Source: Humisphaera borealis (GTDB taxonomy: Bacteria > Planctomycetota > Phycisphaerae > Tepidisphaerales > Tepidisphaeraceae). Taken from it: DNA of 64,000 nucleotides. The stretch spans positions 6,200,001 to 6,264,000 of the forward strand of contig NZ_CP063458.1 of assembly GCF_015169395.1 (NCBI RefSeq), read 5' to 3'. Positions 43,119 to 44,490 of the stretch are shown here, piece by piece. Numbering within the stretch: the stretch's first letter is position 1; each line of letters begins with the position of its first letter. Made by a program: the position numbers and the translations under genes. Below the pieces are notes generated by a model. The model had not been told where the DNA came from and made no database searches. It worked only from the letters and a program-made list of their open reading frames with translations.

Positions 43119-43193
43119 GTGGCACGGGCGTCTCGCCCGTGCGGCTTGGCCGGCAAAACAGTTCAAAAGACACGGGCGGGAAGCCCGTGCCAC
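43119..43193. repeat. Double-hairpin palindromic element (CACGGGC family)
   Basis: The outer arms GTGGCACGGGC (43119-43129) and GCCCGTGCCAC (43183-43193) enclose two hairpins, CACGGGCG-TCT-CGCCCGTG and CACGGGC-GGGAA-GCCCGTG. It overlaps the upstream region of the membrane protein gene. Related to 30713-30828. Confidence 0.8.
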
Positions 43194-43290: not shown

Positions 43291-43415
43291 GTAGGGTGGG
43301 GTTCACCCCACTAAGCGGCATACGAGAACCTGTTGTGTTGACTTCGCGAGCGGATTTGCCGGCGCGGACACAGCTTGCCAGACCACGCATCGTGGTGGGG
43401 TGATCCCCACCCTAC
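43291..43415. repeat. GTAG-headed double-hairpin element (REPIN-like, GGTGGGG family)
   Basis: The left end is GTAG followed by GGTGGGG, TTCA and CCCCAC (43291-43311). The right end (43394-43415) is the inverted counterpart with a TGAT loop, ending CCCTAC. The right end lies four bases before the pheS ATG. The same family recurs at 63450-63604. Confidence 0.85.
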
Positions 43416-43419
43416 ATTT

Positions 43420-44490
43420 ATGCCCGACGTCTTTGCCGAACTCGACGACCTGTCCCGCCAGGCCGCTGCCGATCTTGCCACCGTCGCCACCAACGACGCG
43501 CTGGAGCAGTACCGCATCAAGTACCTGGGATCGAACGGGATCCTCAAGGCCAAGATGTCGCTCATCGGCGCCGCGCCGCCGGATCAGAAGAAAACGGTGG
43601 GGCAGAAGCTCAACGCGATCAAAGCCGAGATCAACACCGCGTTCGACGCGAAGAAGACCGCGATCACCGACTCGGCCGGCGAGCCAGGCATGGACGTGAC
43701 CGAGCCCGGGCTTCGGCCCGCGGTCGGGAACAAGCACATCCTGATGAAGGTCATTGGCGAGCTGACCGACTTGTTCGGCCGAATGGGTTTCAGCGTCGCC
43801 AGCGGGCCGGAAGTGGAGGATGAGTTCCACAACTTTGTCGCGCTGAACATCCCGGAGAGCCATCCGGCACGGGATCCGATTGATAACTTCTATCTGGATG
43901 TAGGGTCCGCCTTGGCGGACGTTACGAAGGGACCGACAAACTCTTCCGCTACGCAGACGAACGCGTCCGCCAAGGCAGACCCTACGGGGCTCCGTCTTCT
44001 CCGCACCCAGACCTCCACCGTGCAGATTCGCGTTATGGAGACGCAGAAGCCGCCGATCCGGGTGGTGATCCCCGGGCGGGTGTATCGGCCGGACACGGTG
44101 GACGCGACGCACCTGTTCATGTTCCACCAGCTCGAGGCGCTGGTCGTCGACACGAACGTGACGATGGTGGACCTCAAAAGCACGGTGATGCAGTTCGTCC
44201 ACGCCTACTTCGGCCAGGACGCGAAGGTGCGGTTCCGCCCGAGCTTCTTCCCGTTCACCGAGCCGTCGGCCGAAGTGGACGTCTGGTTCGAAGACAAGCA
44301 GCGGTGGATCGAGCTAGGCGGGTGTGGGATGGTCCACCCGAACGTACTGCGCGCGTGCAACATCGACCCGGAGGTCTATTCGGGCTGGGCGTTCGGCTTC
44401 GGTATCGAACGCATCGCAATGCGGAAGTACGGCATCACGGATATTCGCTACTTCATCGAGAACGATGTGCGGTTCTTGCGGCAGTTCTAA
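43420..44490 (+). CDS. pheS: Phenylalanyl-tRNA synthetase alpha subunit with repeat-derived insertion
   Basis: 356 residues from ATG 43420. The coiled-coil N-terminus (about 1-85) is followed by the class II catalytic core: GPEVEDEFHNFVALNIPESHPARDP, then LLRTQTSTVQIRVME and RVYRPDTVDATHLFMFHQLE, FRPSFFPFTEPSAEVDV, and motif 3 GWAFGFGIERIAMRKYGI. It charges tRNA-Phe together with PheT. Residues about 161-189 come from an in-frame REPIN-like element inserted in the loop before LLRTQTS; this loop is naturally variable between species, so the enzyme can remain active. pheT is not adjacent. No ribosome site is visible before the ATG. Confidence 0.92.
   Translation: MPDVFAELDDLSRQAAADLATVATNDALEQYRIKYLGSNGILKAKMSLIGAAPPDQKKTVGQKLNAIKAEINTAFDAKKTAITDSAGEPGMDVTEPGLRPAVGNKHILMKVIGELTDLFGRMGFSVASGPEVEDEFHNFVALNIPESHPARDPIDNFYLDVGSALADVTKGPTNSSATQTNASAKADPTGLRLLRTQTSTVQIRVMETQKPPIRVVIPGRVYRPDTVDATHLFMFHQLEALVVDTNVTMVDLKSTVMQFVHAYFGQDAKVRFRPSFFPFTEPSAEVDVWFEDKQRWIELGGCGMVHPNVLRACNIDPEVYSGWAFGFGIERIAMRKYGITDIRYFIENDVRFLRQF
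43900..43985. repeat. GTAG-headed double-hairpin element inside pheS
   Basis: Left end GTAGGGTCCGCCTTGGCGGAC (43900-43920) in two parts, GTAG and a GTCCGCC-TT-GGCGGAC palindrome; right end the inverted copy ending CCCTAC (43965-43985) with one mismatch. It is read in frame as VGSALAD ... ASAKADPT. Same family as 50890-50977 and 62475-62538. Confidence 0.9.

Follow-up and report, generated by a model that had tools for sequence, protein, structure and literature searches.

In Humisphaera borealis, a dimer of GTAG-tagged REPs (REPIN) from an abundant family has very probably inserted in frame into a length-tolerant surface loop of PheS, the alpha subunit of phenylalanine--tRNA ligase, and separately into ValS and AroDE, forming an unstructured translated insertion. 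The pheS element is located at positions 43900..43985 of the window, which is the whole 64,000-nucleotide stretch of DNA analysed (C1:6200001-6264000). The genome is formed of one contig with a length of 7.19 Mb.

The pheS gene and its 29-residue insertion

The pheS gene (43420..44490, plus strand) encodes a protein of 356 amino acids. The equivalog profile TIGR00468 matches PheS over its full length with 320 bits against a cut-off of 237, and the presence of both the N-terminal and the core Pfam domains (PF02912 and PF01409) indicates a complete PheRS alpha subunit. A search of the organism's own genome returned a single pheS, and pheT is present elsewhere in the genome. The sequence-only reading of this DNA had named a second, intact pheS as the finding that would expose this copy as a pseudogene, and this objection therefore falls away. 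With one complete contig, one pheS, and a full-length open frame scoring above the cut-off, a pseudogene or an assembly artefact is extremely improbable; the occurrence of the same event in valS and aroDE also speaks against it.

The PheS proteins of E. coli and Salmonella align unbroken on both sides of query residues 162-190. The alignment ends at query residue 161 and restarts at residue 191, whereas target residues 162 and 163 are contiguous. The insertion, previously put at about 29 residues, is therefore exactly 29 residues long. Relative to E. coli PheS, the additional residues are placed between DNFYLD and LRLLRTQTS. In the AlphaFold model of PheS, which matches the fold of solved PheRS alpha chains, almost all of the insert residues 164-189 have pLDDT <50, and the remainder of the fold is predicted with confidence. 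The structural model that had been suggested as a check thus predicts disorder for the inserted loop. This loop is variable, is probably disordered, and adjoins the LLRTQTS segment, which we take to be substrate-binding, as is established for PheRS.

Organization of the element

The REPIN spans 86 bp and has no assigned strand; its arms were recognized by pattern. The arm unit has 21 bp, composed of GTAGGG and GTCCGCC-TT-GGCGGAC, with a stem of 7 bp. The left arm (43900..43920, plus strand) is an exact match to GTAGGGTCCGCCTTGGCGGAC and is read as VGSALAD. It is open in two of its three frames, and the third gives TAG. The spacer of 44 nt (43921..43964, plus strand) is read as VTKGPTNSSATQTN(A) and has no counterpart in other copies, based on the comparison of 47 sampled dimers. 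The right arm (43965..43985, minus strand), identified by pattern match, is read as (A)SAKADPT. Its single mismatch changes GCG to GCA in the pheS frame, both of which encode alanine. An extra base at position 43986 (plus strand) brings the insertion to 87 nt, or 29 codons, as follows from the frame arithmetic and the 29-residue gap relative to E. coli PheS. This agrees with the earlier remark that 86 bp is not a multiple of three and that the junction had to be adjusted. Translated in the pheS frame, the element reads VGSALADVTKGPTNSSATQTNASAKADPT, and the insert, including the stretch VTKGPTNSSATQTNASAK, is presumably present in the protein. Folded as DNA, the element forms a hairpin of -27 kcal/mol (z = -6.2). 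No target-site duplication was seen, and the element has no match in Rfam.

Two other palindromic repeats precede pheS. A second GTAG REP dimer (43291..43415, no strand assigned), with GTAGGGTGGGGTTCACCCCAC arms (GTAGGGTGGGG...), ends 4 bp before the start codon, and thus takes the position of the ribosome-binding site. This repeat is represented by 21 arms and nine dimers in a contiguous 2.05-Mb sample of the genome. Further upstream is a third palindromic repeat dimer (GTGGCACGGGCG...; GTGGCACGGGCGTCTCGCCCGTG...) at 43119..43193, again without assigned strand, with 42 arms and 14 dimers in the same sample. It resembles the type that has invaded ValS in the related genomes G002, G016, and G022. 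Elsewhere, another palindrome (DTGFQPV...RTGWKPV) breaks the gene of an MMPL-family transporter in frame (C1:6639966-6640064).

The REP family across the genome

Arms of the type GTAGGGTCCGCCTTGGCGGAC, with up to three mismatches, occur 155 times in forward and 144 times in reverse orientation, which gives approximately 299 in 7.19 Mb, and the reversed-pattern control returned 0. The sequence-only reading, which had described a REPIN-like element in frame in pheS, is borne out by these counts and by the sole intact pheS. It had also allowed for the possibility that an ordinary PheS loop resembles the repeat by chance. The length of this loop does vary in all relatives, and the loops of the family are unrelated in sequence. 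Yet the inserted element has one mismatch in 42 arm positions and the correct inverted layout, and the reversed control found nothing in the whole genome, so that the probability of chance resemblance is negligible. The genome of the same genus contains 12 arms of the GTAGGGTCCGCCTTGGCGGAC type, and other relatives have few or none, indicating that the family expanded in the H. borealis lineage.

The copies were classified in the contiguous 2.05 Mb and in 60 regions, mostly around listed exact arms, yielding 95 dimers and 74 single arms, of which 47 dimers and 33 single arms are from the contiguous part. Genes for the placement of REPs were called with a hexamer model. The dimers are inverted doublets with a short spacer that form one hairpin (z from -6.2 to -7.5). 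Nearly all examined REPs are intergenic or positioned over the 3′ end of a gene, where they often overlap the stop codon. Only 1 of 80 is in a divergent gap, versus 247 such gaps among 1494 gene pairs. The GTAG tag, hairpin stem, and high copy number are those of GTAG REPs, as are the extragenic bias, the proximity to 3′ ends, and the scarcity in divergent gaps.

Conserved enzymes are interrupted in frame by about three of the 95 examined dimers, in pheS, valS, and aroDE. The in-frame copy had been called unusual, and this holds insofar as most copies are extragenic; however, it is not singular, given the copies in valS and aroDE, other palindromes in relatives, and prior reports. The valS REPIN (C1:1040910-1041004) is in frame in the loop that precedes the TTRPET editing motif; its spacer encodes AANGDNASDANTNVSAD. 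The identity of ValS is given by NF004349, with 983 bits against a cut-off of 704. In the bifunctional aroDE, the REPIN (C1:1916426-1916519) is in frame in the turn that links ALNTI to YGTSTDY, and its spacer encodes GNGVEESNAEPSNAV. The shikimate dehydrogenase part of AroDE scores just over the cut-off of TIGR00507, and the aroD part just under its own. The insert is absent from relatives at the pheS, valS, and aroDE sites alike.

A single arm is located within the gene of a DUF1549/DUF1553 protein (3516490), and other single arms are near gene ends. Two candidates were rejected: the arm-like match at 5435966 is a natural glycine-rich sequence of an Obg-like protein with a resemblance only, and the internal dimer at 2574477 falls in a probably spurious frame to which no Pfam family matches.

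The fraction of flexible residues (A/G/S/T/N/Q/D/E/K/P) is 0.93 in the spacer of pheS, 0.94 in that of valS, and 0.87 in that of aroDE, whereas 180 open frames read from the spacers of other sampled dimers average 0.57. The shares of these frames that reach the pheS, valS, and aroDE values are 0, 0, and 2%, respectively. The linker-like residues of the genic spacers, which are only three, fit filtering or selection at the protein level. Selection might have favoured the insert for a role in PheS, such as tRNA contact, stability, or partner binding, or as an RNA hairpin that slows translation. The preserved arms with their single, synonymous mismatch, the linker-like spacer, and the strong hairpin would suit such domestication, but the insert is predicted to be disordered, each species has a different loop without cross-species conservation, and young insertions would look the same without any selection. 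Domestication is therefore distinctly improbable.

The PheS loop in relatives

The PheS loop, measured from ..NFY to LRTQ, has six residues in outgroup genomes of the class and 10-35 unalignable residues in the family, in line with the earlier statement that its length varies between species. An alignment revealing the empty site had been proposed; no exact empty pheS site at the DNA level was found in any relative compared. The nearest genome belongs to the same genus, and its PheS (79% identity) has its own loop of 33 residues with a different sequence. The ends of that loop match dispersed repeats of its genome, namely the heptamer-type CACTCAGCACTCAGCACT and a GGAGGG-rich unit. Heptamers (CAGCACT)n, which are usually intergenic, are found in frame in a 1044-aa gene of H. 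borealis (C1:4849836) and in the same-genus PheS. The PheS loops of G006, G019, and G022 have no dispersed copies among the matches listed, and these older loops thus cannot be called repeats.

Since there is no empty site in the DNA of a closely related strain, the REPIN may have replaced an older PheS loop, or its arms may flank one. In the latter case, the spacer would be old, family-specific protein sequence, and the arms alone would be mobile. The spacers of sampled dimers are indeed unique to each copy (2 to 146 nt), whereas the arms are near-identical; the family loops of 10-35 residues are similar in size to the 44-nt spacer; and the central part of the loop in the same-genus PheS (KVGHASAAAGNAA) faintly resembles the pheS spacer. 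However, the valS and aroDE loops of many relatives are short and contain nothing spacer-like, which indicates that the whole dimer arrived there. Furthermore, palindromes of G022 match one another over the full 135 bp, including the spacer, in dozens of copies, so dimers are able to move as units. The addition of arms around a pre-existing PheS loop is accordingly considered rather unlikely.

The ValS loop in relatives

Twenty-two ValS loops of the family were surveyed from the YLRYP strand to ATTRPE. Nine of them are bare loops of 17 residues. The loop of H. borealis, with the GTAG REPIN, has 51 residues. That of G002 contains a GTGGCACGGGTTTTCAACCCGTG dimer (52 residues), those of G016 and G022 contain GTGGCATGGGCGTCTCGCCCATG dimers (39 and 60 residues, respectively), and that of G005 contains inverted GGGTTCA heptamers (43 residues). 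Tandem repeats are present in the ValS loop of G004 and others. The loop of G022 includes a 30-bp exact inverted repeat. The palindromes in the ValS loops of other genera of the family belong to the dispersed types GTGGCACGGG..., GTGGCATGGGCG..., and GGGTTCA heptamers, and the repeats of G002, G016, G004, and G005 have dispersed copies in their own genomes. The G022 palindrome has dozens of full-length copies (94 matches listed). In G022, the GTGGCATGGGCG palindromes are constant in length (~135 bp), and in dozens of them the spacer is partly kept; the spacers of the H. borealis GTAG REPINs are unique.

In a ValS tree, the repeat-bearing genomes are scattered, although several branching points of their clade lack resolution. 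The repeats of H. borealis, of G002/G016/G022, and of G005 are mutually unrelated, so that this one loop was entered independently at least three times, and further entries are likely.

Proposed course of insertion

The REPIN would have entered a surface loop of PheS that already tolerated changes in length, with separate entries into ValS and AroDE. A genic copy would persist only if an open frame of the left arm is used, the total length keeps the reading frame, and the insertion point is in a loop exposed to solvent. The surviving insert would be translated as an unstructured linker, and its effect on the enzyme may be near-neutral. In a broader, tentative reading, which we hold to be plausible but not the likelier outcome, the ValS loop before TTRPET and the PheS loop before LLRTQTS are recurrent landing sites, which unrelated palindromes enter, become flexible linkers, and are remodelled or replaced. 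Mobile palindromes would then be a steady source of change in protein length in the family, with spacers selected at the protein level.

The element may be mobilized by a RAYT-type Y1 transposase. A profile search found 11 Y1_Tnp domain matches in the genome. Eight of these loci were read, and none of them is bordered by a GTAGGG REP. Two near-identical RAYT-like Y1 transposase genes are arranged in tandem at C1:4158951-4160170, without a GTAGGG REP at their borders. REP-flanked RAYT genes are possibly absent from some REP-bearing species (Di Nocera et al. 2013, PMC3733652), and a GTAG REP therefore does not strictly require one.

Comparison with known systems

In-frame intragenic GTAG/CGTC REPs, with tRNA synthetase genes among their targets, were described by Di Nocera et al. 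(2013, PMC3733652), and in-frame palindromes in coding genes are also known as Rickettsia palindromic elements (RPEs; Ogata et al. 2000, 2002, as cited in PMC10969869 and PMC3733652). The pheS copy is thus a further case of a known phenomenon. The H. borealis element resembles RPEs in its in-frame insertion into coding genes (pheS, valS, and aroDE), a likeness of behaviour only. RPEs differ from the 86-bp element in their described length of ~150 bp (PMC10969869) and in having far more genic copies in Rickettsia. With the REPIN/RAYT system (Bertels and Rainey 2011, PMC3116915), the family shares inverted REP doublets, hundreds of copies per genome, and the presence of Y1 transposase genes. In contrast to that system, the H. 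borealis spacers vary freely in sequence and length, and none of the eight Y1 loci read is flanked by this REP.

The closest resemblance is to the REPs of Di Nocera et al. (PMC3733652), which are likewise GTAG palindromes, form dimers with GTAG outside, and provide TAG stops for flanking genes. Those REPs favour the 3′ ends of genes and avoid divergent gaps; their intragenic dimers encode 20-30 residues, and two Xanthomonas species have different REPs at about one and the same position of recB. The main text of that paper does not mention pheS. In the literature searched, which was mainly openly accessible, no description was found of a single ValS loop that unrelated palindromes have occupied repeatedly in different genera. 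Repeat annotation that is confined to extragenic space misses coding copies. Within one bacterial family, the ValS loop occurs bare, with an insert, and with other inserts, which provides a clean comparative system, in which tolerance, protein-level filtering, and later remodelling can be tested directly. Unlike the REPs described previously, those of H. borealis reside in a planctomycete of the Phycisphaerae and interrupt three conserved enzymes of a single genome; across genera, one ValS loop is occupied by at least three unrelated types of repeat. The notable addition is that one loop of a single essential enzyme has taken up unrelated palindromes repeatedly and independently.
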